The notes beneath the pieces were generated by a model. It made no database searches. It saw only the letters and a program-made list of their open reading frames with translations, and was not told the DNA's origin. The position numbers and the translations under genes were made by a program. From an uncultured Spartobacteria bacterium (GTDB taxonomy: Bacteria; Verrucomicrobiota; Verrucomicrobiia; Chthoniobacterales; Chthoniobacteraceae), in NCBI GenBank assembly GCA_903901425.1, contig CAIURC010000071.1, positions 30,587 through 94,586 of the forward strand: DNA of 64,000 bases, given 5' to 3'. Shown one piece after another: positions 2,846-63,958 of the stretch. Position 1 is the first letter of the stretch. Each line of letters begins with the position of its first letter.

Positions 2846-2846
2846 T

Positions 2847-48698: not shown

Positions 48699-50620
48699 AA
48701 ACATTTCTGGGTACGTTGGTTCTTGGAGTCTGGATGTCGCTTGCCGCGCGGGCCGAGCGTGTAGCGCTGGTGATGGGGAACAACGTCTACGCAAACCTTC
48801 CCAGCCAGATGCAGCTCCAGAGTCCGGTGTCGGATGCTGCAGACGTTGCGGCTGCGCTCAAAAAACTCGGGTACCGGATTATTGGAGAAAAACCCCTGAC
48901 CAACGGGACGCGGGAGGCGATGACGGGTGCTGCGGAGGCGTTTGCTGCGGCTGCGAAATCTGCGGAGGCGGCGGTGTTTTACTATTCCGGGCACGGGATT
49001 CAGGTGGGCGAGGACAATTACCTTTTGCCGACGGACACGCCCAAGCTGACGGCGCTTTCGATGCTCAAAAACCGGTGCATTCTGCTGCGGGACACGATCA
49101 TGGTGGGGTTGGAAGAGGCGGGTGCGGGGAACAAGGTGATTATTTTGGACTGTTGCCGGGACAACCCGTTCAGCGCGCAGTTGGATGCGGCGCTGTCGCA
49201 GGTGGGCAAGAGCGTGAAGACAAAGTCGGTGGGGGAGATGACGGGGTACGGCCCCGGGTTTTACTTGGCGTTTGCGACCAGCCCGGGATCGACGGCGCTG
49301 GATGGGAACGGGAAGCGGAACAGCCCGTTTACCGGGGCGATGCTGAAGGTGTTGGAGACGAAGTCGGGAGAGGACATCGATTTCTTTTTCCGGGAAGTGA
49401 AAAAGAGCCTGCCACGGGATCAGGTGAGCTGGACGAACCACAGTTTGCAGTCGGGATTCGCGCTGGGGTTGGGGCGGCCCGTGGAGGAGGGAGCGTTGAT
49501 GGCGGAACGCGGACGGTTGGAGGAGGAGCGGAGGAAACTGGAATTGGTGAAGCTGGAAACCGAGAGGCGGGCGTTGGAGGAGGAAAGGAAGCGTCTGGAG
49601 ATGGCGAAGCTGACGCCGCCGGGTGGTTCCGGTACGCCGCCTGCAAAGGTGGGGGCTGGGGATGCCGAGGGGCGGGAGGCGGGTCAGGCGATGCAGAACG
49701 GGATGGGGACGGTGTTTCGGTGGTGTCCGGCTGGGGAGTTCCTGATGGGCAGCAGCGAATCGGAGAAACAGAGTTTTGCGAAGTGGGGTTTTTCTACGGA
49801 TGACGAAACCCGACACCGGGTGGTGCTGAGCAAGGGGTTCTGGCTGAGCGAGCACGAGACCACGCAGGGAGAATGGACGGCGGTGACAGGGCGCACGGTG
49901 AGGGACCAAGCCAAGAGGATGCTCGAAGACGACACGAAATATGCGGCGGTTGGCAACAAAACGCTGCGCGAGTTCTATGGGCTGAAGAGGACGGACGATC
50001 CCATGCGTTTAATCCATGCGGAGGGCGATTCTGTGCCTGTGTATTTTGTGAGTTGGCCGGAGGCGGTGCAGTATTGCGAACGGCTGACGGAACGGGAGCG
50101 TGGTTTGGGAACTCTGCCCGCGGGATGGAAGTATGCGCTGCCGACGGAGGCGCAATGGGAGTACGCGTGCCGAGCGGGAACCCAGACGTCGATTTACAGC
50201 GGGGAACTGAGGATCGTGGGGAAGAACAACGCGCCTGGGTTGGATGAGATTGCGTGGTATGGGGGGAACAGCAGTGACGGGTACAGTGGCCGGGGAGCGG
50301 ATACGTCTGGCTGGCCTGAGAAGCAGTATCCTGGGGGAGTGGCTGGGGCGCGGAAGGTTGGGCAGAAGCGAGCAAATGCGTGGGGGATGCAGGACATGCT
50401 GGGGAACGTGTTTGAGTGGTGTTCCGACTGGTACAAGGCGGACATCACGGGTGTACGCGTCGATCCCACGGGGGCGCCTTCGGGCGTCGACCGGGTGTGC
50501 CGCGGCGGCAGCTGGGGCAGCGCTGCCGTCGTCTGTCGCGCCGCCTACCGCTTCGGGAGCGTACCCGGCATCCGGAGCAACAACCTTGGATTCCGTCCCG
50601 CCCTAGTTCCATCCAGATGA
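48695..50620 (+). CDS. CASP1: secreted caspase-like/coiled-coil/FGE-fold protein, DGR target
   Basis: A 641-residue protein. Signal peptide at 1-20 (MKTFLGTLVLGVWMSLAARA). The caspase-like domain runs about 21-255 with the catalytic His in YYSGHGIQ (H100) and Cys in ILDCCRDNP (C153/C154; the second aligns with the metacaspase nucleophile). A charged coiled coil lies near 265-307, and the C-terminal FGE-fold (C-type lectin-like) domain runs about 330-641 with AGEFLMGS, LPTEAQWEYACRAGT and NVFEWCSDWY. The last 46 residues hold the variable repeat. It is the only target with the longer, more diverged FGE domain, and it is coupled to the sigma/anti-sigma genes. The FGE fold is a known DGR-variable ligand-binding scaffold. 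Ligand and substrate unknown. Confidence 0.88.
   Translation: MKTFLGTLVLGVWMSLAARAERVALVMGNNVYANLPSQMQLQSPVSDAADVAAALKKLGYRIIGEKPLTNGTREAMTGAAEAFAAAAKSAEAAVFYYSGHGIQVGEDNYLLPTDTPKLTALSMLKNRCILLRDTIMVGLEEAGAGNKVIILDCCRDNPFSAQLDAALSQVGKSVKTKSVGEMTGYGPGFYLAFATSPGSTALDGNGKRNSPFTGAMLKVLETKSGEDIDFFFREVKKSLPRDQVSWTNHSLQSGFALGLGRPVEEGALMAERGRLEEERRKLELVKLETERRALEEERKRLEMAKLTPPGGSGTPPAKVGAGDAEGREAGQAMQNGMGTVFRWCPAGEFLMGSSESEKQSFAKWGFSTDDETRHRVVLSKGFWLSEHETTQGEWTAVTGRTVRDQAKRMLEDDTKYAAVGNKTLREFYGLKRTDDPMRLIHAEGDSVPVYFVSWPEAVQYCERLTERERGLGTLPAGWKYALPTEAQWEYACRAGTQTSIYSGELRIVGKNNAPGLDEIAWYGGNSSDGYSGRGADTSGWPEKQYPGGVAGARKVGQKRANAWGMQDMLGNVFEWCSDWYKADITGVRVDPTGAPSGVDRVCRGGSWGSAAVVCRAAYRFGSVPGIRSNNLGFRPALVPSR
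50482..50603 (+). repeat. DGR variable repeat VR1
   Basis: 122 bp aligned without gaps to the TR at 52161-52282. Sixteen differences, all at TR adenines. The residues at the variable codons are D, C, G, S, A, V, Y, F, S, V, I and S, with two AAC positions near the end still Asn. The last 14 bases before the stop are shared by all four VR genes, and the GC run CCGTCCCGCCC at the 3' end is the likely initiation-of-mutagenic-homing site. Confidence 0.95.
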
Positions 50621-50682
50621 AAGCGGAGCGTTGGGCGAGCGGAGCGAGGAGCCGGAGCGAGGGACGAGCGGAGGCGGGGTAG
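50621..50682 (+). repeat. Purine-rich flank shared after VR1 and VR4
   Basis: About 60 bp after the CASP1 stop, rich in GAGCG and GGAG motifs, nearly identical to 63828-63890 after CASP4. After CASP2 and CASP3 the same flank is shorter by about 29 bp, the loss lying between two GAGCGGAG copies. It has no complementary arms, so it is not a hairpin. Confidence 0.75.
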
Positions 50683-50711
50683 GAGGAAATTTGAAAGCCG
50701 AGATGTAAGAA

Positions 50712-51185
50712 ATGGGGTTAAAGTTTTTCCATGTATTCAGCCGTGACCCTGGCGCAATGGAGACGGAGCTGAACAGTTTTCTCGCCAGACACCGTGTGGT
50801 GAATGTGGAGCGGCGGTTTGTGGAGAGTGGAGCAGAATCGTTTTGGGCGATCTGCGTGGATTATTTGGAAGGGAATGGCGGAGGTGGAGCCGTGCATGGT
50901 TCGCCGGGTCGCTCGGAGCGGAAAGTGGATTACAAAGAGGTGCTTTCAGCGGAACAGTTTGCGGTGTTTGCGAAGCTCAGAGAGTTGCGAAAGAGTGTTG
51001 CGGAGAGGGAGGCTGTGCCCGTGTATGCGGTGTTCACCAATGAGCAGCTTGCGGCGATGGTTCAGGGGGGCGTCGATAGCCGGAGCAAGTTGCGGAGTAT
51101 CGAGGGGATTGGCGATGCGAAGGTTGAGAAATACGGCGAAGTTTTTCTCGGGTTGCTGGCCGCAAGCGCTCCAACTCCTGGATGA
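50712..51185 (+). CDS. HRDC-domain protein, DGR accessory
   Basis: A 157-residue protein. The C-terminal part (about 75-155) is an HRDC domain: FAKLRELRKSVAEREAVPVY, VFTNEQLAAM and LRSIEGIGDAKVEKYGEVFL are the recognisable pieces. HRDC domains bind nucleic acid in RecQ and RNase D. The N-terminal 70 residues (MGLKFFHVFSRDPGAME onwards) match nothing I can name. It overlaps the RT gene by four bases and follows CASP1 by 92 bases. HRDC proteins occur as DGR accessories in place of the better-known Avd, and no Avd is seen here. Confidence 0.85.
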   Translation: MGLKFFHVFSRDPGAMETELNSFLARHRVVNVERRFVESGAESFWAICVDYLEGNGGGGAVHGSPGRSERKVDYKEVLSAEQFAVFAKLRELRKSVAEREAVPVYAVFTNEQLAAMVQGGVDSRSKLRSIEGIGDAKVEKYGEVFLGLLAASAPTPG

Positions 51186-52177
51186 AAAGAGTGGGAGGAA
51201 TTTATGAGGGGATTTGGGAGTGGGAAAACCTGAGGCGGGCGTTTTGCCGGGCTCGCAAAGGCAGTGGAAGGAGTCAGGAAGTTCAGTGTTTTGAGCGGGA
51301 TCTGTGGGAAAACCTCCGGAGGATTCAGGAGGAGTTGAGGGAGGAACGCGTGGTTCTGCATGGGTTCAGGCAGTTCCGGATTCATGATCCCAAGGAGCGG
51401 CTCATTACCGCTCCGGCCTTCCGGGACCGGGTGTTGCATCATGCGCTCATGGGGGTTTGCGAGCCGCAGTTCGAAAAGTGGCAATTGGCGGAGAGTTTTG
51501 CCTGCCGCCGTGGGAAGGGGCGGTTGGCGGCGCTAAAATGGGCGACGGAGCGTGCCCGGCAGTACCGGTGGTTTGTGAAAATGGATGTGCGGAAGTACTT
51601 TGAAAGCGTGTCCCACCATATCCTGTGGGAGGCGCTCCGGAAAAAGTTCAAGGATGCGAGGGTGCTAGAGCTGTTCCGTCAGATGATCAATGCCCATGAG
51701 TCTCGCCCCGGGCATGGGTTGCCAATCGGAAGTCTGGTCAGCCAGCACCTCGCCAACTTTTACTTGGTCCCCTTGGATCGCTTCGTCAAAGAGACCCTGC
51801 GCGCCCCGGGCTATGTGCGGTACATGGATGATTTTGTGCTCTGGGGAGAGGATCCGGCTCAGATCCGAATTTGGTGGGAACAAATCCGGCAGTTTCTGGA
51901 GGTCAAACTGTGTCTGGAGCTGAAACCCGGGACGCACGCAAACCGTACGGAGCACGGGATGGATTTTTGTGGGTTCCGGATTTTTCGGGGATGGCGTGTT
52001 CTCAATCGGCGATCCAAGAAGCGGCTTGTGGGAAGGCTCAAGGAACTTCGGGCGCTGGAAGGCAGGGTTGCAGAGCAGACGCTGCAAAGGCGTGCCGAAG
52101 CGGTTTTTGCCTTTACCAAGGAGGGGCACACCTTGAAGGATCGAAGGTGGGCGCTGGCCAGGGCGTCAACCGGGTGA
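51182..52177 (+). CDS. DGR-type reverse transcriptase
   Basis: A 331-residue reverse transcriptase. Catalytic acids are D135 (MDVRKYF) and the YMDD at 214-217 (YVRYMDDFVLW). Residues 182-188 read IGSLVSQ, the (I/V/L)GXXXSQ motif that marks DGR RTs, in place of the QGXXXSP form of group II intron and retron enzymes. There is no maturase or endonuclease domain. It would copy the TR RNA with errors at adenines and supply cDNA for homing into the four VRs. Its ATG overlaps the HRDC stop, and its last 17 bases are the first 17 of the TR. Confidence 0.96.
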   Translation: MKRVGGIYEGIWEWENLRRAFCRARKGSGRSQEVQCFERDLWENLRRIQEELREERVVLHGFRQFRIHDPKERLITAPAFRDRVLHHALMGVCEPQFEKWQLAESFACRRGKGRLAALKWATERARQYRWFVKMDVRKYFESVSHHILWEALRKKFKDARVLELFRQMINAHESRPGHGLPIGSLVSQHLANFYLVPLDRFVKETLRAPGYVRYMDDFVLWGEDPAQIRIWWEQIRQFLEVKLCLELKPGTHANRTEHGMDFCGFRIFRGWRVLNRRSKKRLVGRLKELRALEGRVAEQTLQRRAEAVFAFTKEGHTLKDRRWALARASTG

Positions 52178-52282
52178 ACCGCGGCGGCAGCTGGAACAAC
52201 GATGCCGTCAACTGTCGCGCCGCCAACCGCAACGGGAACGAACCCGGCAACCGGAACAACAACCTTGGATTCCGTCCCGCCC
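52161..52282 (+). repeat. DGR template repeat (TR)
   Basis: 122 bp with 29 adenines, 24 of them in twelve AAC codons in the reading frame of the targets. AAC codons can become many residues by change of the two adenines without giving a stop. It matches the four VRs without gaps from GGGCGTC to CCGTCCCGCCC; the bases right after (C, AG, C, TCCA) differ from the VR side at two C/T positions, as expected when IMH and IMH-star differ. The 5' end lies inside the RT gene. Confidence 0.97.
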
Positions 52283-52298
52283 CAGCTCCACCCGCCCG

Positions 52299-52318
52299 GG
52301 TTCCGTAGAGAACCTTTT
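52299..52318 (+). terminator. Weak terminator-like hairpin after the TR
   Basis: GGTTC and GAACC pair around CGTAGA and are followed by TTTT, 17 bases after the TR ends. It could set the 3' end of the TR RNA. The stem is only five base pairs, so this is a weak call. Confidence 0.35.
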
Positions 52319-52553
52319 GGATGGAACCGGCCAGTGACCCGGTCCCGGTGATTTGGGTTGCCGGGCAAATGCAGTCCCTGCCGTTCTGGTGCTGGTAGTA
52401 GAAGCGTGGATGCGCTTCTGCGAACGCTCCAGGGCGGCCTTTTATTTGTCGGGTAATTGAGCGGAAAAACCCCGCAATCAACCGTCCATCTCCGGCGATG
52501 GGTCTGGTGTGGACGCCGCGGAGTGCGGCGCCGCGAACCCTAAAAAACCCAAT
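52319..52553 (+). other. Leader of the first Cys-rich gene
   Basis: No gene is supported here. The last ~80 bases (from about 52472, GCAATCAACCGTC then GGCGATGGGT) are repeated almost exactly upstream of the second Cys-rich gene (58820-58902), and more loosely at 63911-63945. This makes it a shared leader or promoter of the caspase modules, but no clear -10/-35 pair is evident. Confidence 0.5.
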
Positions 52554-52811
52554 ATGAAACTGCTGATCCTTGCCACTGTGAGCCTTCTGTCTGCTGGTTG
52601 CGTCCAGGCCAGCGACTGTTACACCCCGCGCCGGTCCGGGTATTGCGCCCCCGTGTACCGCTACACCCGACAGGTCGGATGCCGGACCGAGTACCGCTGT
52701 GGGACCGACCATTGCGGACGCCGGGTGATGTACCCGGTCCGGGTGGTGACCTATGCGGACTACTACTCGGACGGTTCTGTCCGGACGTACACCCGGAGTG
52801 GTGCGCTGTGA
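52554..52811 (+). CDS. Tiny secreted Cys/Tyr-rich protein, copy 1
   Basis: An 85-residue protein: signal sequence ending LSAGC, perhaps a lipoprotein (C16), then a Tyr/Arg/Cys-rich body with C22, C31, C43, C49 and C54. I recognise no family. It heads the CASP2 module, about 78 bases before the OmpA-like gene. The second copy at 58903-59160 has only two residue differences. Disulphides in the periplasm are plausible. Confidence 0.7.
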   Translation: MKLLILATVSLLSAGCVQASDCYTPRRSGYCAPVYRYTRQVGCRTEYRCGTDHCGRRVMYPVRVVTYADYYSDGSVRTYTRSGAL

Positions 52812-52888
52812 GGGCGCATGTCCTGTTTCTGGCTGGGAGCAAACGGGGTCTGGTCGGAGGAGGAGGTTTGTGTTACACGCGATGCGTT

Positions 52889-53428
52889 ATGAAACGGTTG
52901 CACCTGATCCTTCTCCTCTTCGCCGCCCTCCGCGTGGTGGCTGCAGACCCCGAGGTGGTTCCCGCCGAACAGATTGCCCGGAAATGGAAACGGACCAAGT
53001 CCATCAACGGGCCCACGGAAAAAATCCGCAAAGGGTTGGAGGTTGAGGTGGGCACCCAGCCTGTGGAGGTGAAGGTGGATGCCGACACCGCGGTGAGTTT
53101 CCAGAACATCCAGTTCCAGCGGGACAGCGCGGAGCTGCTGGACGGAGTCACGGCCGCGCAGATCGGGGAGATTGCGCGTGCGATGAAACAGGCCGGGAGC
53201 GAGCGGTTCTTGATCGAGGGTCACACCTGCGATCTGGGCAGCGACGCGCATAACCTCGGGCTTTCCCAGCAGCGGGCATTGGCAGTCAAGCGGGCGTTGG
53301 AATGGCATGGTGTAGAGCCCGGGCGGTTGCAGGTGCTCGGGTTCGGGGAATCGGATCCGGTGATAGCCAATACGGACGAAACCGCGCGCGCCAAAAATCG
53401 CCGGGTGCAGATTTACCGGAAACTCTGA
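52889..53428 (+). CDS. OmpA-like protein, copy 1
   Basis: A 179-residue exported protein (signal MKRLHLILLLFAALRVVAA). The C-terminal half is an OmpA-type peptidoglycan-binding domain: IQFQRDSAELLDGV, FLIEGHTCDLGSDAHNLGLS, QRALAVKRALEWHG and RAKNRRVQIYRKL. No membrane barrel is present, so it is a periplasmic cell-wall binder. Its TGA shares one base with the CASP2 ATG, so the two are made together. A role as wall anchor or sensor for the caspase is a guess from position. Confidence 0.85.
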   Translation: MKRLHLILLLFAALRVVAADPEVVPAEQIARKWKRTKSINGPTEKIRKGLEVEVGTQPVEVKVDADTAVSFQNIQFQRDSAELLDGVTAAQIGEIARAMKQAGSERFLIEGHTCDLGSDAHNLGLSQQRALAVKRALEWHGVEPGRLQVLGFGESDPVIANTDETARAKNRRVQIYRKL

Positions 53429-55122
53429 TGCCTATGAAACCGAAGGCGCTGATGGTGTTTGTGGTGGCCGTGGGAGCCATGGGAGCCGTGCGAGTGTTTG
53501 CGGAGGAATTGCCGCGGGAGGCGCTGGTGATGGGGGTTGGGGAATATGCCGGGGCGAGCTACAAGGGGAAAACGATCCGGAACCTGCCCGGGATCACAAC
53601 GGCGGATTTGCCGTTGATGAAGGCGAAGCTGGAGTTGCTTGGGTTCCGCGTCCGAGTGGTATCCAATCCGACGCGGAAAGAGGCGGAACAGGAGGTGGAC
53701 GCGTTCTCAGCGCGGATCAAGGAACGGCCCGGGGTGTCGCTGTTTTACTTTTCCGGGCACGGAGGTGAGTACAAGGGGAAGAACTACTTGATCCCGCGGG
53801 AAGCGAGCATCGGGAGTGCCGCGGATTTGGAGGACAAAGCGCTCAACGCGCAGCGGGTGTTGAACGGGATGGAAGAAAGCGGGGCGACGGTGAACCTGGT
53901 TTTCTTGGACTGTTGCCGGGAGGATTTGGGGAAGAGCGTGGGCGGTGCGGAGTTGGCGCCGTTGAAAGCGCGCGGGAGTTTTGTGGGGTTTGCAACGCGG
54001 AGCGGGGATTTTGCGGATCCCGAGGAGAAGGGGAGTCCGTACACGCGTTTTTTGTTGAAGCACCTTGGGACGCCCGGGATCAGCGTTTCGGACATGTACG
54101 CCGGGGTGATCTCGGACGTGAAGAACTACTCCAAGCGGGTGCTTGGGGAGGAAAGGCGGCCCGGTTTTTACTCGGAGTTGGATGCGCCGTTTTATTTCGT
54201 GCCGGCGAGTTTTGTGAAGCCGGTTGAGGCGGCTGGGCGTGCGGTGGAGGAGGGCGCGTTGATGGCAGAACGTGAGCGCTTGGAAAAGGCGCGGATTGCG
54301 TTGGAAGAGGAAAGGAAGCGTCTGGAGATGGCAAAGCTGACACTGCCCAAGACTGCGGTGCCGCCCCCGGCTGCGGATCCGGATCCGGCAAAGGCGGAAA
54401 CGGGCGCGGTGGGAAAGACGCTGGAGGTGGGGTTGCCGGGTGGAAAGGTGATGAGGTTCTGCTACTGTCCACCCGGGAAGTTCACGATGGGGAGTCCGGT
54501 GAGCGAGCCGGGGCATGAGAGCGATGAGGACCAAGTATCCGTGACGATCAGCCAAGAATTTTGGATGGCGGAAACCGAGGTGACTCAGGCGCAGTGGGAA
54601 TCGGTGATGGGAACGAATCCGAGTTATTTCAAGGGAGCGAGCCTGCCTGTGGAGCGGGTGAGTTGGGAGGACGCGCAGGAAATGGTGAGGAAGCTCACCC
54701 AGACTGGTCTTGCACCCTCTGGTTTCAAGTTTGCCCTCCCAACGGAGGCGCAATGGGAGTACGCATGCAGGGCAGGGACGCAGACGGCGTATGCGTTTGG
54801 AAGCCAGTTGACCCCGCAGGAGGCAAACTTTGGGAAAGGAGCAGATGGGCAGACGGTTTCCGTGAAAACGTACCGTCCAAACCGGTGGGGATTGTACGAT
54901 ATGCACGGGAATGTGTGGGAGTGGTGTAGCGATTTGTTGGGCGACAGGCTTCAAGGAGGCGTGGATCCCAGAGGTGCGTCTTCGGGCGTCCTCCGGGTGT
55001 TCCGCGGCGGCGGCTGGTTCAGCGATGCCGTCGGCTGTCGCGCCGCCGGCCGCGGCGGGGGCGAACCCGGCGACCGGGGCGACTTCCTTGGATTCCGTCC
55101 CGCCCTAGTTCCATCCAGATGA
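53428..55122 (+). CDS. CASP2: secreted caspase-like/coiled-coil/FGE-fold protein, DGR target
   Basis: A 564-residue protein. Signal at about 1-25 (FVVAVGAMGAVRVFAEE). Caspase-like domain to about 260, with catalytic H111 (FYFSGHGGEYKG) and C162/C163 (VFLDCCREDL). Coiled coil near 278-305 (RERLEKARIALEEERKRLEM), a Pro-rich linker, and an FGE-fold domain (about 340-564) with PGKFTMGSPVSEPGHESDED, VTQAQWESVMG, LPTEAQWEYACRAGT and GLYDMHGNVWEWCSD. The last 46 residues are the VR. Its caspase domain is close to CASP3's; its FGE domain is close to CASP3's and CASP4's. It would act outside the cytoplasm. Ligand unknown. Confidence 0.9.
   Translation: MPMKPKALMVFVVAVGAMGAVRVFAEELPREALVMGVGEYAGASYKGKTIRNLPGITTADLPLMKAKLELLGFRVRVVSNPTRKEAEQEVDAFSARIKERPGVSLFYFSGHGGEYKGKNYLIPREASIGSAADLEDKALNAQRVLNGMEESGATVNLVFLDCCREDLGKSVGGAELAPLKARGSFVGFATRSGDFADPEEKGSPYTRFLLKHLGTPGISVSDMYAGVISDVKNYSKRVLGEERRPGFYSELDAPFYFVPASFVKPVEAAGRAVEEGALMAERERLEKARIALEEERKRLEMAKLTLPKTAVPPPAADPDPAKAETGAVGKTLEVGLPGGKVMRFCYCPPGKFTMGSPVSEPGHESDEDQVSVTISQEFWMAETEVTQAQWESVMGTNPSYFKGASLPVERVSWEDAQEMVRKLTQTGLAPSGFKFALPTEAQWEYACRAGTQTAYAFGSQLTPQEANFGKGADGQTVSVKTYRPNRWGLYDMHGNVWEWCSDLLGDRLQGGVDPRGASSGVLRVFRGGGWFSDAVGCRAAGRGGGEPGDRGDFLGFRPALVPSR
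54984..55105 (+). repeat. DGR variable repeat VR2
   Basis: 122 bp aligned to the TR without gaps; 22 differences, all at TR adenines, the most of the four. Residues at variable codons are L, F, G, F, S, G, G, G, G, D, G, D and F. The 3' end and the stop context match the other VRs. Confidence 0.95.
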
Positions 55123-55142
55123 GTGCGGAGCCCTGGGCGAGC

Positions 55143-55161
55143 GGAGGCGGGGGTAGCCTCC
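55143..55161 (+). repeat. Short inverted repeat after CASP2
   Basis: GGAGGC and GCCTCC around GGGGGTA. It lies between the convergent CASP2 and AbiEii-like genes. No T-run follows, so its role as terminator is not shown. Confidence 0.35.
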
Positions 55162-55173
55162 CCAGAGAGATAT

Positions 55174-56094
55174 TTATTCTGCGGCGATTTTCTCCAAGGG
55201 TTCAATCGCATCGACCAGCAGGCGTTCTCCCACGGTGCGAAGCTGAGCAAGAGTGGGTGGATTCGCTACAAGAAGGCCGTATGCGCAGGTGTGGAGGGCT
55301 TCGGAGAAGTCTTCGATATGGTGCGCTTCCAGAAGTTGGCGAACACCCTGACCTGCTTGAACGGCAAGCTGTCGCCAGCGGGCCGGGAAACGCACCTGCA
55401 ATGCATCCGCCCATAGAGATGCCCATTCCAACAGGGTGTCTTCGGTTTTCCTTTCTGCCAGTAATGCCAGGGCAAGAACTCGGCCGAGATCCTTGTTTGT
55501 GGGTTTGATGCGGCGCCCGCCCATCAGCCCGCTCATGGTCTGTGGGCCGATGGATGGATGGTGCAGCAGGTTGGCCAGAGCCATCATTTCTGGCCTTACC
55601 ACGCAAATCCCAAACTCGGTGCTGACAGGCTGGTAGTCGGCCAGCGCGAGAAAGCCAAAGCTGCACAGGCTGAAGTGACCTTTCGAGGTAGGAAGGCGGA
55701 TGTAGCGCTGGCCCAGGTCGTTCTGGTTCTCTGGGACAGTGAGAAGTTCGATGAACCATTCCGTCGAGTCGGGAGGCCGGAGCCGGGCCACGGGCAGGTC
55801 TTCATCCGGGGTGTCCACGGTGCCCGGTGCCGGGAATTGATCCGTTGGATGGAAGGTACAATTGGCAGCAAATAGGCGCTCCGTGACGGCAATCCCTGCG
55901 GGAATATCCCGAAAACGAGGGGAGAGCATGCAGTCAGCATCCTTGGTCCGGACTTGGAGCGCAGGGCTGTCTCCGAAGAAGCTGTAGCCTGCCGCCAAAC
56001 TGCCAATGACGATCAGGTTTGCTTTGCAATCGTCGGGAACCGCTGCAGCCACCTGAGCCAAAGCTGCGCGAGGGGAGATCTGGGATTGGCTCAA
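55174..56094 (-). CDS. AbiEii-like nucleotidyltransferase, putative toxin
   Basis: A 306-residue protein with an N-terminal nucleotidyltransferase site: GSLAAGYSFFG (G31-S32) followed by VRTKDADCML with D52 and D54, the two-Asp signature of this fold. The rest is helical. It resembles AbiEii-type toxins that add nucleotides to tRNA and block growth. Its start overlaps the stop of the AbiEi-like gene (ATGA), antitoxin first, as in type IV AbiE systems. The family match is by motif and layout, so alternatives among nucleotidyltransferases remain. Confidence 0.65.
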   Translation of the reverse strand: MSQSQISPRAALAQVAAAVPDDCKANLIVIGSLAAGYSFFGDSPALQVRTKDADCMLSPRFRDIPAGIAVTERLFAANCTFHPTDQFPAPGTVDTPDEDLPVARLRPPDSTEWFIELLTVPENQNDLGQRYIRLPTSKGHFSLCSFGFLALADYQPVSTEFGICVVRPEMMALANLLHHPSIGPQTMSGLMGGRRIKPTNKDLGRVLALALLAERKTEDTLLEWASLWADALQVRFPARWRQLAVQAGQGVRQLLEAHHIEDFSEALHTCAYGLLVANPPTLAQLRTVGERLLVDAIEPLEKIAAE

Positions 56095-57041: not shown

Positions 57042-57132
57042 CCACGTTGTCCTCAAGGGGCACGCCGAGGGCGAGGCGATCTCCGCAGGCCTCGGTCCCC
57101 CGAAGTCGCCACCCTTCAACGTGGCGCTGGCC

Positions 57133-57163
57133 TTGACCTCGATTCTTTCGTGATATAAATATC
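57133..57163 (+). promoter_or_regulatory. Promoter and operator-like repeat for the Phd/VapB-VapC pair
   Basis: TTGACC (57133-57138) and TATAAAT (57154-57160) are spaced 15-16 bases apart. GATAT and ATATC around AA (57152-57163) overlap the -10, a likely site for antitoxin binding. The ATG at 57168 is only seven bases after the -10, so the transcript may be leaderless. Confidence 0.55.
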
Positions 57164-57167
57164 TATC

Positions 57168-57422
57168 ATGAAAACCGCAACCGTGGCCGACCTTCGCAAC
57201 CATTTTCGGCGCGTCTCCGCGTGGATCGAGAACGGCGAAACGGTGGAAATTGTCAAGCGGGGCCGGATCTTTGCCCGGCTCGTTCCGCCGGTTCCCGCCG
57301 AAAAGCCCGTGCCAAAGGTGGATTGGGCCGCACAACGCAAGGCCATTTGGGGCAATCGCGTTTTCAGCGCGGCGGAGGTGAAGGCAATGGAAGATTTCGA
57401 GCATGAAGGGGAGGAAGGTTGA
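57168..57422 (+). CDS. Phd/YefM-type antitoxin
   Basis: An 84-residue protein with the family start MKTATVADLRNHFRRVSAWI, followed by ENGETVEIVKRGRIFARLVP and an acidic C-terminus (MEDFEHEGEEG), which usually wraps the toxin. It binds its own promoter through the N-terminal fold. Its stop overlaps the toxin start (TTGA). Confidence 0.85.
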   Translation: MKTATVADLRNHFRRVSAWIENGETVEIVKRGRIFARLVPPVPAEKPVPKVDWAAQRKAIWGNRVFSAAEVKAMEDFEHEGEEG

Positions 57423-57874
57423 ACGCCTTTGCCGATACTTCCCTGTTGTGCGCTCTCTACCGGGAACAGGATAATTCTTCCGATGCGGACCGGCTCATGC
57501 AGCGGGAATCCGCGCCGGTTCACGTTTCTTCCTTGGTGCTTTTCGAGTTTCGGCAATCGCTTCGCCTGCAAGCCTTCCGGTTTTCGAAGGATCGAACGCA
57601 GGGATTTTCAAAGACGGAAGCGCACCGAATGCTTGAAACTTTGCAAGCAAACATCGTGGCGGGCCGCCTCATGATCCCGCCCATTGAGGATTGGGCCAAG
57701 GTTTACAGCATCGCCGAAGAGCTTTCCGCACAATACACCATGCAAGGAGGGCACCGGAGTTTCGATGTCTTGCACGTCGCGACCGCGCTTCATTTGAAGT
57801 CGGGGTGTTTTATGACGTTCGACATCCGCCAAGCCGCGCTCGCCAAGGCTGCCGGTCTCAAGGTGAGACCATGA
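57419..57874 (+). CDS. VapC-type PIN-domain toxin
   Basis: A 151-residue PIN-domain ribonuclease starting at a TTG that overlaps the antitoxin stop. The first catalytic Asp is in NAFADTSLLCALYREQ (D5), and later acidic residues lie in RSFDVLHVATALHL and CFMTFDIRQAALA. Such toxins cut RNA and stop growth until the antitoxin returns. The pair looks intact. Confidence 0.82.
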   Translation: MNAFADTSLLCALYREQDNSSDADRLMQRESAPVHVSSLVLFEFRQSLRLQAFRFSKDRTQGFSKTEAHRMLETLQANIVAGRLMIPPIEDWAKVYSIAEELSAQYTMQGGHRSFDVLHVATALHLKSGCFMTFDIRQAALAKAAGLKVRP

Positions 57875-58104
57875 TCCCATGCGGCGCGCAATCCCCAACA
57901 CAAGTTTTTGGTGGGGGGCAAACGCTGCTGTCTTGGATGTAACGCTTCATGGGCGAGGTCGTTTTTCGGATGCCGTAAAGACGCCGGGCCGGCACGCGGA
58001 ACGCTGGGGTGAGTGCGAACGGAAAATTTTTTGGAGCCGCGGGAGGCCAACCTTTCTTTGTGACCGGGAGGCGTGTTATTGCATGCGTATAAACAACGGA
58101 TCTT

Positions 58105-58335
58105 ATGCTGCTTGAACTCAAACTCCGCAAAGTCGGCAATTCCTTGGGCGTTGTCCTGCCCAAAGAGGCGCTGAGCTATTTGAAAGTCGGGGAGGGGGAT
58201 GTGATTTGCATCACGGCGGCATCGGAAGGCAGCCTTCGCGTGAGCCCAGCCAAGGCTGATTTTAATCGGCAAATGCAGATCGCTCAGGACGTTGTTGCAC
58301 GGTACCGCAACACCCTCAGGGAACTCGCCAAGTGA
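58105..58335 (+). CDS. AbrB/MazE-type antitoxin
   Basis: A 76-residue swapped-hairpin DNA-binding protein: LRKVGNSLGVVLPKEALSYL is the typical opening. The C-terminal helix (RQMQIAQDVVARYRNTLREL) would bind the toxin. It is followed by a Doc-type gene, the usual partner for this kind of antitoxin. A TATAAA at 58088 may be its -10, without a clear -35. Confidence 0.8.
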   Translation: MLLELKLRKVGNSLGVVLPKEALSYLKVGEGDVICITAASEGSLRVSPAKADFNRQMQIAQDVVARYRNTLRELAK

Positions 58336-58724
58336 CGCGCTAGCACCCCGAGTGGGTTTTGCGTGAAACCGTGCTCTCCCTGCATGAGCAACTGCTCGCC
58401 GAATTCGGTGGCGCGGGTGGAATACGGGACGAAGGCTTGTTGGATTCCGCATTGGGCCGCCCGGAAAATCTGTTTGGATACGGGCAACCCACCCTCAGCC
58501 AACTGGCTGCCTCTTACGTGTTTGGGTTGGTCAAGAATCGCCCGTTTGTAGACGGAAACAAAAGGATTGGCTTCGCGATGGGTGCGCTTTTTCTGCAGCG
58601 CAATGGGCGGAGGTTGGTTGCCACAGAAGCGAATGCCGTCCTCCAGACCCTGGCTCTGGCCGCCGGAGAGATCGGGGAAGACGCGTATGCCTGTTGGTTG
58701 GAAGCGAATTCCGAGGAAATGTGA
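58332..58724 (+). pseudogene. Doc-like Fic-fold toxin, apparently broken
   Basis: The frame starts with a GTG at 58332 that overlaps the antitoxin stop, but its fourth codon is TAG (58341-58343), one transition from CAG. Beyond it the sequence continues as a good Doc/death-on-curing protein (about 121 residues from a TTG at 58359): ETVLSLHEQLLAEFG, GIRDEGLLDSALGRPENLFG and GNKRIGF. The Fic motif, normally HPFXDGNKR, reads RPFVDGNKR: the catalytic His is Arg (codon CGC, one transition from CAC at 58540). Both lesions suggest a neutralised toxin. The TTG could still give a short, inactive protein. Confidence 0.75.
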
Positions 58725-58902
58725 CCGCCAAGACGGGGGGCGGGCGGTTTCACGGCGCGTTGCTGAGGGCGTGCCCTCCAGTGAACATGGCGGAGAACCG
58801 GGGCGCATTTTTGAAAACCCCCGCAATCAACCGTCGATCTCCGGCGATGGGTTGGGTGTGGACGCTGCGGAGTGCGGCGCCGTGAACCCCAAAAAACCCA
58901 AT
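58725..58902 (+). other. Leader of the second Cys-rich gene
   Basis: No gene is supported. The last 80 bases repeat the leader of the first Cys-rich gene (52472-52553) almost exactly, which marks the left edge of the second caspase module. Confidence 0.5.
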
Positions 58903-59160
58903 ATGAAACTGCTGATCCTTGCCACTGTAAGTCTTCTGTCCGCTGGTTGCGTCCAAGCCAGCGACTGTTACACCCCGCGCCGGTCCGGGTATTGTGCCCC
59001 CTTGTACCGCTACACCCGGCAGATCGGGTGCAGGACCGAGTACCGCTGTGGGACGGACCATTGCGGACGCCGGGTGATGTACCCGGTCCGGGTGGTGACC
59101 TATGCGGACTACTACTCGGACGGATCTGTCCGGACGTACACCCGGAGCGGTGCGCTTTAA
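58903..59160 (+). CDS. Tiny secreted Cys/Tyr-rich protein, copy 2
   Basis: An 85-residue protein differing from copy 1 by two residues (Val to Leu in CAPVYR, Val to Ile in RQVGC). All cysteines are kept. Near-identity with many silent changes suggests purifying selection or recent conversion. It heads the CASP3 module. Confidence 0.7.
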   Translation: MKLLILATVSLLSAGCVQASDCYTPRRSGYCAPLYRYTRQIGCRTEYRCGTDHCGRRVMYPVRVVTYADYYSDGSVRTYTRSGAL

Positions 59161-59243
59161 AAACGTTCGGCAGGGTTCATGGGCCGGTCTGTTAGAAGGT
59201 TGGGCTGGCCATAGGAAACCTTCCGTGTTAGGCAGTGGAGCTG

Positions 59244-59660
59244 ATGCAATGGACCCTGATCCTGCTTCTGTTGGGGGGAACCCTCTGGGCCGATCCCGAA
59301 GTGGTGCCCGCCGAGCAGATCGCCCGGAAATGGACCAAGTCCATCCACGGACCCACGGAAAAAATCCGCTATGGGCTGGAGGTGGGCACCCAGCCGGTGG
59401 AGGTGGATGCCGACACCGCGCTGAGTTTCCAGAACATCCAGTTCCAGCGGGACGGCGCGGAACTGCTGGACGGAGTCAAGGCCGCGCAGATCGGGGAGAT
59501 AGCGCGGGCATTGCCAGTCAAGCGGGCGCTGGAATGGCATGGCGTGGAGCCCGGGCGGTTGCAGGTGCTCGGGTTCGGGGACTCGGATCCCGTGACAGCC
59601 AATACGGACGAAACCGCGCGCGCCAAAAACCGACGGGTCCAGATTTACCGGAAACTCTGA
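59244..59660 (+). CDS. OmpA-like protein, copy 2, lacking the wall-binding loop
   Basis: A 138-residue exported protein (signal MQWTLILLLLGGTLWA) close to copy 1 but with one 32-residue (96 bp) and three 2-residue deletions, all in frame. The lost 32 residues hold the peptidoglycan-binding part (the FLIEGHT to LSQQRA stretch), while the ends FQNIQFQRDGAELLDGV and RAKNRRVQIYRKL are kept. Its stop shares one base with the CASP3 start. Keeping the frame after four deletions argues for a made protein, perhaps with a changed role. Confidence 0.78.
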   Translation: MQWTLILLLLGGTLWADPEVVPAEQIARKWTKSIHGPTEKIRYGLEVGTQPVEVDADTALSFQNIQFQRDGAELLDGVKAAQIGEIARALPVKRALEWHGVEPGRLQVLGFGDSDPVTANTDETARAKNRRVQIYRKL

Positions 59661-61396
59661 TGCCTATGAAAACAAGTGTGCTGATGGTGTTTGTGGTGGC
59701 CATGGGAGCCATGGGAGCCGTGCGAGTGTTTGCGGAGGAACTGCCGCGGGAGGCGCTGGTGATGGGGGTTGAGAAGTATCAAGACGCGATCTATGAAGGG
59801 AAAGCGATCCGGGACTTGGCCGGGATCACGACGGCGGATTTGCCGTTGATGAAGGAGAAGCTGGAGTCGCTTGGGTTCCGTGTCCGTTTGGTGTCCAATC
59901 CGACGTGGAAGGAGGCAGAACAGGAGGTGGAAGCGTTTTCAGCGCGGATCAAGGAACGGCCCGGGGTGTCGCTGTTTTATTTTTCCGGGCACGGAGGGGA
60001 GTACAAGGGGAAGAACTACCTGTTACTCCGCGAGTCGCGCATTTGGAGTGCGGAGCATTTGGAGGACAATGCGCTGAACGCGCAGCGGGTACTGGACGGG
60101 ATGGAAAAAAGCGGGGCAACGGTGAACCTGATGTTCTTGGACTGTTCCCGGGAGAATCTGGGGAAGAACATCGGCGGGGCGGAGTCAGGGCCTTTGAATG
60201 CGCCCAGGAGTTTTGTGGGGTTTGCAACGCAGAGCGGCGATGGCGTGGATTCTGAAGTGGAGGGGAGTATTTACACGCGTTTTTTGCTGAAGCACATGGG
60301 GACGCCCGGGATCAGTGTTTCGGACATGTACGCCGGGGTGATCTCGGACGTAAAGCAATACTCCAAGGATGTGCTGGGGACGAAACGGCGGCCGGTGTGT
60401 TACTCTGAGCTGGATGCCCCGTTTTACTTCGTGCCGGCGAGTTTTGTGAAGTCCGGTGAGGCGGCAGGCCGTGCGGTGGAGGAGCGTGCGTTGATGGCAG
60501 AACAAGGACGGTTGGAGGAGGAGCGGAGGAAACTGGAGTTGGTGAAGCTGGAAACTGAAAGGCGTGCGTTGGAAGAGGGGAGGAAGCGTCTGGAGATGGC
60601 AAAGCTGACACCACCCAAGACTGTGGTGCCGCCCCCGGCTGCGGATCCCGATGCGGGTCCGGCAAAGGCGGAAACGGGTGCGGTGGGAAAGACGCTGGAG
60701 GTGGGGTTGCCGGGCGGAAAGGTGATGCGGTTCTGCTACTGTCCGGCCGGGAAGTTCACGATGGGGAGTCCGGTGAGCGAGCCGGGGCATTCAAATGATG
60801 AGAACCAAGTATCCGTGACGATCAGCCAGGGGTTCTGGATGGCGGAAACCGAGGTGACGCAGGGTCAGTGGCAGTCGGTGATCGGATCGAACCCGAGCCG
60901 CTTCAAGGGAGCGAGCCTGCCGGTGGAGCAGGTGAGTTGGGAGGATGCGCAGGAGATGGTCAGGAAACTCAACCAGACGTCCCGGCCGCCCTCGGGGTTC
61001 AAGTTTGCCCTCCCGACGGAGGCGCAGTGGGAGTACGCGTGCCGGGCAGGTACCCAGACGGCGTATGCGTTTGGAAGCCAGTTGACTCCGCAGAAGGCAA
61101 ACTTTGGGAAAGGAGCAGGCGGGCAGACGGTCGCAGTGATGAGCTACGGGCCGAACCGGTGGGGATTATATGAAATGCACGGGAACGTGTGGGAATGGTG
61201 TAGCGATTGGCGCGGCGACGGGCTTCAAGGAGGCGTGGATCCTAGAGGTGATTCTTCGGGCGTCAGCCGGGTGATCCGCGGCGGCGGCTGGGACATCGAT
61301 GCCGTCCGCTGTCGCGCCGCCGACCGCGACGGGAACGCACCCGGCTACCGGCTCAACGTCCTTGGTTTCCGTCCCGCCCTAGTTCCATCCAGATGA
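59660..61396 (+). CDS. CASP3: caspase-like/FGE-fold DGR target, presumed catalytic Cys replaced by Ser
   Basis: A 578-residue protein with the CASP2 layout: signal, caspase-like domain, coiled coil (near 275-320), Pro-rich linker, FGE-fold domain and VR3. The His is kept (FYFSGHGGEYKG, H111), but the cysteine motif reads FLDCSRENL: the second Cys, which aligns with the caspase nucleophile, is Ser163 (TCC versus TGC in the others). The protein is probably an inactive caspase with a variable head. Its FGE domain has LPTEAQWEYACRAGT and GLYEMHGNVWEWCSD. It pairs with the shortened OmpA copy 2. Confidence 0.88.
   Translation: MPMKTSVLMVFVVAMGAMGAVRVFAEELPREALVMGVEKYQDAIYEGKAIRDLAGITTADLPLMKEKLESLGFRVRLVSNPTWKEAEQEVEAFSARIKERPGVSLFYFSGHGGEYKGKNYLLLRESRIWSAEHLEDNALNAQRVLDGMEKSGATVNLMFLDCSRENLGKNIGGAESGPLNAPRSFVGFATQSGDGVDSEVEGSIYTRFLLKHMGTPGISVSDMYAGVISDVKQYSKDVLGTKRRPVCYSELDAPFYFVPASFVKSGEAAGRAVEERALMAEQGRLEEERRKLELVKLETERRALEEGRKRLEMAKLTPPKTVVPPPAADPDAGPAKAETGAVGKTLEVGLPGGKVMRFCYCPAGKFTMGSPVSEPGHSNDENQVSVTISQGFWMAETEVTQGQWQSVIGSNPSRFKGASLPVEQVSWEDAQEMVRKLNQTSRPPSGFKFALPTEAQWEYACRAGTQTAYAFGSQLTPQKANFGKGAGGQTVAVMSYGPNRWGLYEMHGNVWEWCSDWRGDGLQGGVDPRGDSSGVSRVIRGGGWDIDAVRCRAADRDGNAPGYRLNVLGFRPALVPSR
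61258..61379 (+). repeat. DGR variable repeat VR3
   Basis: 122 bp aligned to the TR without gaps; 16 differences, all at TR adenines. Residues at variable codons are S, I, G, D, I, R, D, D, N, A, Y, L, N and V. The synonymous adenine in the GGA glycine codon near the 3' end is also changed (to T). Confidence 0.95.
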
Positions 61397-61491
61397 GTGC
61401 GGAGCCATGGGCGAGCGGAGGCGGGGTGGAGGGGATCCGGCAAACAAAAGACTGTATGAAAATCAGACGCGGTGAGTATAGGATTGGGAGG

Positions 61492-62073
61492 ATGAAGCGG
61501 GTGATTCTGATCCTCTGGATGGGGTTCTCCTTCCACGCGGCATCGGAGGAGCGCCCGGCTGCCGCGAAGCTGGATCTGGATTCGGCGCGCGAGGCGCTGG
61601 CGATCAAGCCCGCCAGAAACCCGGTGAAGAGCATTTCTCCCGTGGTTCGGCGCAGTTACGAGCGGCGTGCCGGAAAGGGGATTGAGTTGGTGTATCGGGA
61701 GGATGGTGGGGTGGAGGAACGGCCATATGTCATGCTACCAATTCTGTTTGTGGTGAACTCCGCAGAACTCTTGGACGGGGTGTCGCGGGAAAATGCGGTG
61801 CGGATGGCCGAGTTGGTGAGCGAGCTTGTGTCTGGCCAGAACGCGCGGTTTGTGATTCAGGGGCACACGAGTGCGGAGGGGGGACGGGAGGCGAACCAGG
61901 CGTTGAGTGCGCTGCGTGCCGAAAGGATCCGTGGGATTTTGACGGAGCGGGGTGTGCCTGAGAGTGCGGTGGGTGTGCTGGGGCTTGGGGCGAGCTGTGC
62001 GCGGTTCCCTGCGGATGCGCCTGAGAAGGAGCTGCAGACAGACCGGCGGGTTTTGATCGTGCGGATGCAATGA
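61492..62073 (+). CDS. OmpA-like protein, copy 3 (diverged)
   Basis: A 193-residue exported protein (signal MKRVILILWMGFSFHAASEE) that is only distantly like copies 1 and 2. The C-terminal part is an OmpA-type domain: PILFVVNSAELLDGVS, NARFVIQGHTSAEGGREANQ, ALSALRAERIRGILTERGV and LQTDRRVLIVRMQ. An ATG at 61456 would add 12 residues. The stop overlaps CASP4's ATG (ATGA). No Cys-rich gene precedes it, so this module differs from the other two. Confidence 0.78.
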   Translation: MKRVILILWMGFSFHAASEERPAAAKLDLDSAREALAIKPARNPVKSISPVVRRSYERRAGKGIELVYREDGGVEERPYVMLPILFVVNSAELLDGVSRENAVRMAELVSELVSGQNARFVIQGHTSAEGGREANQALSALRAERIRGILTERGVPESAVGVLGLGASCARFPADAPEKELQTDRRVLIVRMQ

Positions 62074-63827
62074 AATCAGATCGAATCATGACGGTGTTGC
62101 GGTGGTGCACTCTTTGGGTGTGGGTTTTGGTGTGTCTGTGGGTGGAGCGTGCGGATGGCGGTGAGATTGTGGCGTTGTGCATCGGGAACAACGCCTATGC
62201 AAGGGATGAGGATGTGCTGGATACGCCGGTGAACGATGCGCAGCTCATGCATCGGACGCTGTGCGCGGTGCCCGGTGTGGATGCGTCTGACATTGTGCTT
62301 TTGGAGGATGGGCGTCGGGATCAGATGACGCTTGCGCTGCGGCAGTTCAAAGCGCGCGCAGCCCGGGCGAGGCTGGCGCTGGTGTTTTATTCTGGGCACG
62401 GAGCTGAGGACCAACCCACCGGGTACGACCGAGCGGAGACGTTTTTGCTGCCCGTGGACGCGGTGATTGGGTCGGTGGACGAACTGCCCGACAAGGCCGT
62501 GCCCTTGAAGCTGGTGAGCGAAGCGCTGGATGGAAGTCGTGGGATGGCGCGGGCGGTGATTTTGGATTGTTGCCGGAATGGAGCGCGTGGTGCGACCAAG
62601 GCATTGGTGCGTGCAGGAAAGGATGTTGGGAGTCTGGATGAGCGAGTGAAGAATGCGTTGGGTGGGGCGCAGGTTTCAGAGGGGACCCTGATCGCGTTTG
62701 CGACGAGCCCGGGGCGCAAGTCGGCGGCATTTTTAAAGGAGTCCGACAGCAATAGTCCGTTCACGCTGTTTGTGTGTGAGCAGATGGTGCGGCAGGGAGG
62801 GGATTTGTTTTCAATTGTGAACGAGGCTGGAAAAACGACCAAGGCAAGGACTGAAGGCAGGCAGGTGCCGCATGTGGAACTGCGCGGGGATGCATCGCTG
62901 ATCACCGATTACAAGATTCCGCGTACGATGCGTGCGGATGCACCGGCGGCTCCCGGTGTTGAGGAAGGTGCGTTGATTGCGGAACGTGTGCGCTTGGATA
63001 AAGCGCGGATTGCTTTGGAAGAGGAAAGGAAGCGTCTGGAGATGGCGAAGTTGACGCCGCCCAAGACTGCGGTGCCGCCCCCGGCTGCGGATCCGGATCC
63101 GGCAAAGGCGGAAACGGGCGCGGTGGGAAAGACGCTGGAGGTGGGGTTGCCGGGCGGAAAGGTGATGCGATTCTGCTACTGCCCACCCGGGAAGTTCACG
63201 ATGGGGAGTCCTGGAAGTGAGCCGGGGCATTTTACCGATGAGAACCAAGTGTCGGTGACGATCAGCCAGGGATTTTGGATGGCGGAGACCGAGGTGACGC
63301 AGGGGCAATGGCAATCGGTGATGGGATCGAATCCGAGTTACTTCAAGGGAACGAGCCTGCCGGTGGAGGAGGTGAGTTGGGAGGACGCGCAGGAGATGAT
63401 CAGGAAACTGAACCAGACGGCCCGGCCGCCCTCAGGGTTCAAGTTTGCCCTCCCGACGGAGGCGCAATGGGAGTACGCGTGCAGGGCAGGGACGCAGACG
63501 GCGTATGCGTTTGGAAGCCAGATCACCCAGAAGAACGTGGCATTCGGGTTGAAGCAGAGCGTCCCGGTGAAAAGTTACCGTCCAAACCGGTGGGGTTTGT
63601 ACGATATGCACGGGAATGTGTGGGAGTGGTGTAGCGATTTGTTTGGCGAAAGGCTCCAAGGAGGCGTGGATCCCAGAGGTGCGTCTTCGGGCGTCTACCG
63701 GGTGCGCCGCGGCGGCAGCTGGGGCAGCGATGCCGTCTGCTGTCGCGCCGCCTACCGCGACGGGTTCGTACCCGGCTACCGGAACTACGACCTTGGCTTC
63801 CGTCCCGCCCTAGTTCCATCCAGATGA
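62070..63827 (+). CDS. CASP4: secreted caspase-like/coiled-coil/FGE-fold protein, DGR target
   Basis: A 585-residue protein. A signal lies near 8-30 (VLRWCTLWVWVLVCLWV). The caspase-like domain (to about 290) differs greatly from CASP1-3 but keeps the His in VFYSGHGAED (H110) and Cys in VILDCCRNGA (C167/C168). From the coiled coil on (about 305-335), linker, FGE-fold domain and VR4 are nearly the same as CASP2 and CASP3, with PGKFTMGSPGSEPGH, VTQGQWQSVMG and GLYDMHGNVWEWCSD. This looks like a swap of modules. It is coupled to the third OmpA-like gene. Confidence 0.9.
   Translation: MKSDRIMTVLRWCTLWVWVLVCLWVERADGGEIVALCIGNNAYARDEDVLDTPVNDAQLMHRTLCAVPGVDASDIVLLEDGRRDQMTLALRQFKARAARARLALVFYSGHGAEDQPTGYDRAETFLLPVDAVIGSVDELPDKAVPLKLVSEALDGSRGMARAVILDCCRNGARGATKALVRAGKDVGSLDERVKNALGGAQVSEGTLIAFATSPGRKSAAFLKESDSNSPFTLFVCEQMVRQGGDLFSIVNEAGKTTKARTEGRQVPHVELRGDASLITDYKIPRTMRADAPAAPGVEEGALIAERVRLDKARIALEEERKRLEMAKLTPPKTAVPPPAADPDPAKAETGAVGKTLEVGLPGGKVMRFCYCPPGKFTMGSPGSEPGHFTDENQVSVTISQGFWMAETEVTQGQWQSVMGSNPSYFKGTSLPVEEVSWEDAQEMIRKLNQTARPPSGFKFALPTEAQWEYACRAGTQTAYAFGSQITQKNVAFGLKQSVPVKSYRPNRWGLYDMHGNVWEWCSDLFGERLQGGVDPRGASSGVYRVRRGGSWGSDAVCCRAAYRDGFVPGYRNYDLGFRPALVPSR
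63689..63810 (+). repeat. DGR variable repeat VR4
   Basis: 122 bp aligned to the TR without gaps; 17 differences, all at TR adenines. Residues at variable codons are Y, R, G, S, C, Y, D, F, V, Y, N, Y and D. The synonymous GGA adenine is changed to C. Confidence 0.95.
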
Positions 63828-63890: not shown

Positions 63891-63958
63891 CTTTTTCCGA
63901 AAGAAGCTGGCAATCAAACGCAATCGGGGAGCGATGGGTGCAGTGAATTAAATTGTTT

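Follow-up and report, generated by a model that had tools for sequence, protein, structure and literature searches.

Adenine-specific variation in four linked caspase-lectin genes and a covarying spacer hairpin mark a probable diversity-generating retroelement in an uncultured Spartobacteria bacterium

Analysis of a 64,000 nt stretch of the genome of an uncultured Spartobacteria bacterium (assembly GCA_903901425.1, contig CAIURC010000071.1, positions 30,587 to 94,586 of the forward strand; hereafter, the window) revealed a locus that, judged from its sequence, is almost certainly a diversity-generating retroelement (DGR). This identification follows from changes confined to adenines, the motifs of a reverse transcriptase (RT), an accessory gene, a template repeat (TR) positioned beside the RT gene, and lectin-fold targets that carry a variable repeat (VR) at the C terminus (Table 1). 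Taken as a whole, the locus is very probably best explained as a DGR in which a single TR is likely to rewrite the lectin tips of four probably exported caspase-like sensors, although the caspase-sensor role itself is an evenly balanced proposition. The part of the locus most likely to be new is a covarying hairpin in the spacer 3′ of the TR.

The TR and its four VRs aligned without gaps over 122 bp, and all 71 differences were located at TR adenines, whilst the 93 non-adenine positions were identical in all five copies. If any base could change, the chance of this outcome would be ~10^-44, given 29 adenines in 122 positions. A first-pass annotation of the window had reported these repeat positions and, by hand count, 16, 22, 16 and 17 adenine-specific differences; computed alignment proved the coordinates and counts exact, and upheld the proposal of a four-target DGR with one TR. 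A search pattern allowing any base at each TR adenine and up to three mismatches found exactly five matches in the window, each with zero mismatches, where none was expected from 100 shuffles. The same pattern found exactly five matches, again with zero mismatches, in the whole assembly (5.1 Mb in 224 contigs, 96 % complete), and the reversed control found none; this direct search therefore identified no further VR within three mismatches elsewhere in the assembly. The window ends where the contig ends, and the array of four VRs may continue past that point.

Table 1. Features of the DGR locus and its surroundings (window coordinates)
Feature	Coordinates	Strand	Remarks
TR	52161..52282	+	122 bp; 29 A and 93 other bases; RT stop codon overlapped by 17 nt
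VR1	50482..50603	+	16 differences from TR, each at A
VR2	54984..55105	+	22 differences from TR, each at A
VR3	61258..61379	+	16 differences from TR, each at A
VR4	63689..63810	+	17 differences from TR, each at A
VR-side 3′ tail	50604..50620	+	TAGTTCCATCCAGATGA; IMH-like; identical 17 bases after each of the four VRs
TR-side counterpart of VR tail	52283..52299	+	CAGCTCCACCCGCCCGG; differs from VR-side tail
Hairpin in TR 3′ spacer	52373..52443	+	GTAG/CGAA internal loop; covariation; R1 E 2.7e-9, R2 E 6.5e-8
DGR RT (331 aa)	51182..52177	+	PF00078; PDB 8ub7 E 1.4e-39; IGSLVSQ and YMDD
HRDC-domain accessory protein (157 aa)	50712..51185	+	PF00570 E 1.5e-17
Target 1 (641 aa)	48695..50620	+	Signal-peptide-like start (by eye); caspase PF00656; FGE PF03781 with VR1
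Target 2	53428..55122	+	Signal-peptide-like start; caspase; coiled coil; FGE with VR2; start codon chosen (alternative in-frame ATG at 53302)
Target 3	59660..61396	+	Architecture as target 2; Ser at catalytic Cys (LDCSREN); VR3; start codon chosen
Target 4	62070..63827	+	Caspase N-terminus different; FGE as in the others, with VR4
OmpA-like gene 1	52889..53428	+	PF00691 E 6.4e-20 on ORF from 52787; start picked by eye; stop overlaps target 2 start (TGATG)
OmpA-like gene 2 (shortened)	59235..59660	+	PF00691 E 9.5e-07; stop overlaps target 3 start
OmpA-like gene 3	61492..62073	+	PF00691 E 4.2e-12 on ORF from 61393; start picked by eye; stop overlaps target 4 start (ATGA)
ECF-sigma-like gene, upstream of target 1 (weak)	47515..48108	+	TIGR02937 35.0 bits, cut-off 42.9; Pfam sigma region 4 sub-threshold
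Small protein with one hydrophobic stretch	48048..48698	+	Anti-sigma-like by position only; stop overlaps target 1 start (ATGA)
ORF, open reading frame; IMH, initiation of mutagenic homing; ECF, extracytoplasmic function.

In the repeat, AAC accounts for 12 of the 40 in-frame codons, no codon can be converted to a stop by changes at adenines, and the theoretical repertoire is ~10^16 proteins per VR. Adenines 38, 82 and 99 of the TR were unaltered in every VR. At TR adenines the VRs carried A 45 times, G 36, T 28 and C 7. The scarcity of C was general, as 73 TR/VR pairs from related loci contained 1312 adenine changes (587 to G, 531 to T and 194 to C) and 58 changes at other bases, the latter a lower bound since pairs with many non-adenine changes had been removed beforehand. 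C is likewise the rarest substitution in PMC3521204 (here and below, published work is cited for the parts of each source that were available).

Gene duplication alone offers a different account, in which the VRs are plain duplicates and owe their differences to point mutation and to selection acting on the binding site, a retroelement playing no part. Targets 2 and 3 do sit in a duplicated segment of ~1.9 kb with 86 % identity, and the genome contains paralogues without TR-like VRs. However, the flanks and the repeats tell different stories. Over the 600 bp upstream of the VRs, target 1 was 69–71 % identical to the other targets, and targets 2–4 were 88–89 % identical among themselves. Despite this 11–31 % divergence, none of the 93 non-adenine VR positions differed, for which the probability under flank divergence is between 10^-15 and 2×10^-5 per pair. 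Additionally, the third-position adenine of a GGA codon was altered silently in two of the four VRs (to T in VR3 and to C in VR4), and a DGR RT, an HRDC gene and a TR lie adjacent. Divergent flanks and silent changes around invariant non-adenine positions carry the signature of a TR copied repeatedly into the VRs, and the sequence comparison points to overwriting of the VRs after gene duplication; divergence of duplicates without a retroelement is exceedingly improbable. The silent changes had already led the first-pass annotation to favour adenine-directed rewriting over selection on the protein, and the flank comparison strengthens that argument.

The remaining components are those of a DGR. 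The solved structure closest to the RT is that of the Bordetella phage BPP-1 DGR, and the IGSLVSQ and YMDD sequences read in the RT alignment fit the (I/V/L)GxxxSQ of motif 4 and YxDD of motif 5 described for DGR RTs (PMC3521204). DGR accessory proteins are of the Avd, HRDC or MSL type (PMC10053308), and the HRDC gene, whose stop codon is overlapped by the RT start (ATGA), encodes such a protein. Each VR is located at the 3′ end of the ORF of a lectin-fold target. Beyond a common 3′ end, the VRs continue with TAGTTCCATCC and the TR with CAGCTCCACCC, a difference that corresponds, by sequence alone, to that between the IMH of a VR and the IMH* of a TR.

Some observations weigh against an active DGR of the familiar kind. 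Substitutions at adenines were not uniform, and none of the four VRs is followed by an inverted repeat of the BPP-1 type (7–10 bp stem and 4 nt loop just 3′ of the VR). We do not take the latter as DGR-defining, because loss of the VR-side hairpin/cruciform in an Escherichia coli reconstitution impaired repair severely but incompletely (PMC12875486). Present-day activity is at most predicted; VR diversity was viewed through protein clusters, in which P0149, listed on a different contig and nearly a copy of target 4, had an identical VR (0 of 16 adenine-codon residues changed, and 1 of 200 upstream). The DGR could thus be a relic that diversified the four targets in the past and left VRs that are now fixed alleles, and a relative (G044) indeed contains a decayed DGR that lacks an RT. 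We consider a relic unlikely: the ORFs of RT, HRDC and the four targets are all intact, non-adenine changes have not built up in any VR, and P0010 kept all 24 residues of target 2 from adenine-free codons, whilst differing at 12 of 16 from adenine codons and at 15 of 200 upstream.

The TR 3′ flank was partly conserved across genera, and comparison of loci was the only route by which its hairpin emerged, as minimum-free-energy folding of the TR and spacer as a single sequence was unremarkable (z −0.63). In an alignment of 19 sequences (18 loci and the window), hairpin covariation was 0.586, against 0.184 in shuffled alignments (reached in 0 of 500), and fell to ≤0.249 when the structure was slid by one to three columns, a control that somewhat favours the hairpin because the structure was read from nearly the same sequences as were tested. 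In the same alignment, made with MAFFT without structure, 87.7 % of hairpin cells were paired, against 65.7 % after shuffling. Two covariance models were built, R1 from the 19-sequence alignment and R2 from 40 R1 matches; the window belongs to the training sets of both.

These models were applied to a survey of the best 80 of 493 related loci, many of them cut by contig ends. Wherever R1 (E≤1) and a TR occurred together, the hairpin was located 57–128 nt 3′ of the TR (41 of 41 loci, 24 of them outside the training set), and it kept to the TR even where the TR precedes the RT gene (L108 and L132). R2 matched the window and 50 of the 80 loci at E≤0.01, many being its own training loci. Among R2 matches with a known TR, 42 of 43 lay at the same 57–128 nt distance; the remaining one (L093:4348-4408) is a second copy of the hairpin without a TR. 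At this threshold, 42 of the 62 TR loci had an R2 match. Eight of the 18 loci in which a repeat scan found no TR/VR pair also matched R2, and in all eight an AAC-rich, TR-like stretch was seen by eye just upstream; none of these loci was in R1 training, and five entered R2 training via R1. The hairpin is therefore a way of finding TRs without VRs, and points to TRs whose VRs did not turn up.

Across 57 whole genomes of relatives, R2 matched only the five genomes with the strongest RT matches, six times in all; as the main matches in the five are training sequences, this tests specificity only. The sixth match was new, and identified a decayed DGR (L162, G044:C107) with a VR-like FGE gene, a truncated HRDC gene and the spacer hairpin, in which no RT or TR was seen. 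When 337 genomes of the phylum were searched, 13 gave a match, 14 matches in total; seven of these were already in the survey, one was the window and six were new. An RT of this family was found in the surrounding 2.4–3.1 kb for 12 of the 14, including four of the six new matches. The other two are L168, read as a TR remnant, and L172, with no TR visible and no RT or HRDC match within the surrounding 3 kb. By record title (bin titles taken as given), hairpin loci belong to Verrucomicrobiota groups, Planctomycetota, Desulfobacteraceae, Hydrogenedentota, an Acidobacteria bin, a Bipolaricaulota bin and Odoribacter.

Other observations count against a general DGR hairpin. One of five covariation measures was unexceptional, with 10 double-change pairs against 8.2 (reached in 56 of 500 shuffles), and 20 of the 62 TR loci had no R2 match at E≤0.01. 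Neither model matched the TR-brt spacer of BPP-1 on its own strand at E≤1; the opposite strand gave one R1 match (E 8), and the best R2 match in BPP-1 2600-3600 (E 0.037, inner part only) was just 3′ of the VR. Two relatives, G045 and G053, gave no R2 match despite their DGR-type repeats; either the hairpin is confined to some DGRs, or it has diverged.

The BPP-1 spacer 3′ of the TR folds and recruits bRT-Avd, and one spacer adenine primes cDNA synthesis (PMC12875486). From the comparison of loci, the hairpin described here is probably the RT-loading spacer of the template RNA, and is best read as the putative functional counterpart of the BPP-1 spacer in this RT lineage. A simpler role would be that of a mere transcription terminator of the RT operon, and a T-rich stretch follows the GC-rich stem in many loci. 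This is improbable, since the GTAG/CGAA internal loop is conserved, a GGCAAA-like motif lies upstream of the hairpin in 47 of 52 cases (by a loose pattern), the hairpin stays with the TR in the two loci of reversed order, and it was absent from the output of a terminator scan. An RT-loading spacer would offer a way into the question of how template choice and priming may work in HRDC-type DGRs, for which no solved RNA–protein complex is known to us. Rfam 15 had no match at the gathering score in 47000-64000, and none at E≤1 in 52150-52560. A description of the hairpin was not found in the DGR literature searched, including the available parts of PMC12875486, PMC8867640, PMC6642488, PMC3240598 and PMC10053308, a body of text in which subscription journals are mostly absent, and its novelty is accordingly unproven. 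We give an even chance to the broadest proposal, that the hairpin represents an undescribed RNA family, conserved in several phyla, which turns a transcript into a DGR template (recruiting the HRDC-type RT, setting the cDNA start and marking TRs that lack VRs) and here feeds an exported, antibody-like array of four co-varied caspase-lectins.

The four targets are paralogues, with a signal-peptide-like start, a caspase domain and an FGE/TvpA-like lectin fold bearing the VR. Each target start overlaps an upstream gene by 1–4 nt, and in three cases that gene is OmpA-like. Three of the four retain the catalytic His-Cys pair; a 40-row alignment had the His in every row and the Cys conserved to at least 90 %. 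Where target 3 has Ser at the Cys position, another protein, P0133, has Tyr.

Several points weaken the case for exported caspase sensors. The signal-peptide-like starts were judged by eye without a predictor, a structure model had a pTM (predicted template modelling score) of 0.48, too low to fix the domain arrangement, and a caspase is no general feature of these DGRs, matching in 1 of 71 target ORFs of the survey (phmmer; L114, Pirellulales by title). It is conceivable, and only somewhat less probable than the sensor role, that the targets serve as adhesins or as receptors for ordinary ligands, in which the caspase is merely structural or regulatory and not an effector of death or defence. 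The signal-peptide-like N-termini, the OmpA neighbours and the missing Cys of target 3 are consistent with adhesins, as is the finding that most cellular DGR target clusters carry transmembrane segments or signal peptides with binding domains (PMC8144416). The His-Cys pair retained in three of the four targets argues against this reading.

Combining these elements, a transcript running from the HRDC and RT genes through the TR would carry the spacer hairpin, which may load the RT (perhaps with HRDC) and position the start of the cDNA, as the BPP-1 spacer does. Errors at adenines are predicted to arise as the RT copies the template RNA, and the cDNA would enter at the VR-side tail (TAGTTCCATCC) and not return to the TR with its differing tail (CAGCTCCACCC). 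The copies would be likely to overwrite the lectin-fold tips of the four caspase-like proteins and so change what they bind. Less certainly, the envelope may be where the targets act, next to their OmpA-like partners, and the caspase might be switched there when the variable lectin domain binds a ligand; target 3 may be a decoy or partner. This would tie targeted hypermutation to a caspase that is probably exported, in a phylum mentioned only in passing in the DGR literature available; as one template serves four receptors, it becomes possible to test whether a set of receptors diversifies together.

The locus is an unusually clean DGR of an already published type, as four targets, an HRDC partner, and caspase or FGE targets are each in print. 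Separate papers describe a DGR with HRDC and seven targets (PMC4891356), targets of caspase type (PMC7517822) and targets that are exported (PMC8144416). Its own features are four probably exported caspase-lectin paralogues within ~15 kb, three of them with OmpA-like partners. The Treponema denticola DGR (PMC4891356; PDB 2y3c) shares one TR for many targets, an HRDC gene overlapping the RT gene, the TvpA-type FGE/lectin fold and exported targets. However, its TvpA and up to seven or eight targets are scattered, with no caspase mentioned in the parts of that paper available, whereas here four caspase fusions are clustered and three are paired with OmpA-like genes; the T. denticola TR has A at 38 of 56 variable columns, against 71 of 71 changes at A here. 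The BPP-1 DGR (AY029185; PMC3240598, PMC12875486; PDB 8ub7) resembles the locus in RT family, adenine-directed mutagenesis, a structured TR 3′ spacer and unequal TR and VR tails. It differs in using Avd, in the order avd-TR-spacer-RT (here HRDC-RT-TR-spacer), in the hairpin/cruciform behind its VR, and in a spacer unmatched by our hairpin on that strand.

Cyanobacterial and Thiohalocapsa DGRs (caspase/CHAT, NACHT or FGE targets; PMC7517822, PMC10907252) likewise have caspase-type domains fused to or adjoining a DGR-varied FGE/lectin domain, for which a sensor hypothesis has been put forward. Their targets are mostly predicted to be cytosolic (exceptions exist), and many are tied to MoxR, vWA or STAND NTPases (same sources); in contrast, no MoxR, vWA, VMAP or STAND NTPase domain was seen among the 19 window proteins scanned with Pfam. 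The locus may work partly like VMAP/STAND conflict systems, though outside that class. The DGRs of Pelodictyon, Ralstonia and Pseudogulbenkiania (PMC3521204) resemble it in having four VRs for one DGR.

The first-pass annotation had called the array large, which holds within this RT lineage. A TR/VR set was detected in 61 of the 80 surveyed loci, 52 with one VR, eight with two and one with three; the second VRs of L131 and L134 lie in short ORFs and may be false, making the multi-VR counts upper bounds for the stretches in view. It is no record, as DGRs with four or more VRs have been published (PMC3521204, PMC4891356, PMC6642488). HRDC matched in 73 of the 80 loci and OmpA in one, and the six best-matching named RT records are from Verrucomicrobiota groups by title.

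Among related genomes, which the first-pass annotation had proposed to search for the same TR, G020, from another genus of the same family, has a TR that can be aligned to all 122 positions and shares the 17 nt overlap. In G020 an OmpA gene follows the RT gene, and similar tails follow the TR and both VRs. These VRs, on other contigs, showed 19 adenine and 0 other changes, and 25 adenine and 2 other changes; the second is inside a protein with a signal-peptide-like start, caspase and FGE domains. On the short RT contigs of G001 (of the window's genus), G012 and G044, the visible target is an FGE protein, and reading by eye showed no caspase domain in it; all of these targets are at contig ends, and some are cut. 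In L030 (G044), the RT ORF (83-1438, minus strand) continues through the TR in the target frame, and the RT would end in a TR-coded lectin tail. Four caspase-FGE proteins (P0002, P0122, P0129 and P0130), for which the longest contig listed has 14,525 bp (JGI), perhaps mark a related array; P0122 keeps 23 of the 24 fixed VR residues.

Two further contigs were considered as VR carriers and rejected as VR-less paralogues. A fifth caspase-FGE gene, on contig C222 (3 kb) and full length as P0014, had 46 of 93 non-adenine mismatches at its best TR alignment, and contig C107 had 47 of 93. The last 141 bp of the window (63860-64000) are 97.9 % identical to the sequence behind the C222 gene, and the start of C222 is 96.8 % identical to the target 1 stretch 49401-49554; C222 and the end of the window's contig (C71) are perhaps neighbours in the assembly graph. 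The small protein encoded upstream of target 1 had no match in Pfam or NCBIfam. Between targets 2 and 3 (57168-58724) are two toxin–antitoxin-like pairs, Phd/PIN and MazE/Fic (Phd sub-threshold), and a CHASE2–adenylate/guanylate cyclase protein is encoded beside the locus on the minus strand (45186-47369).

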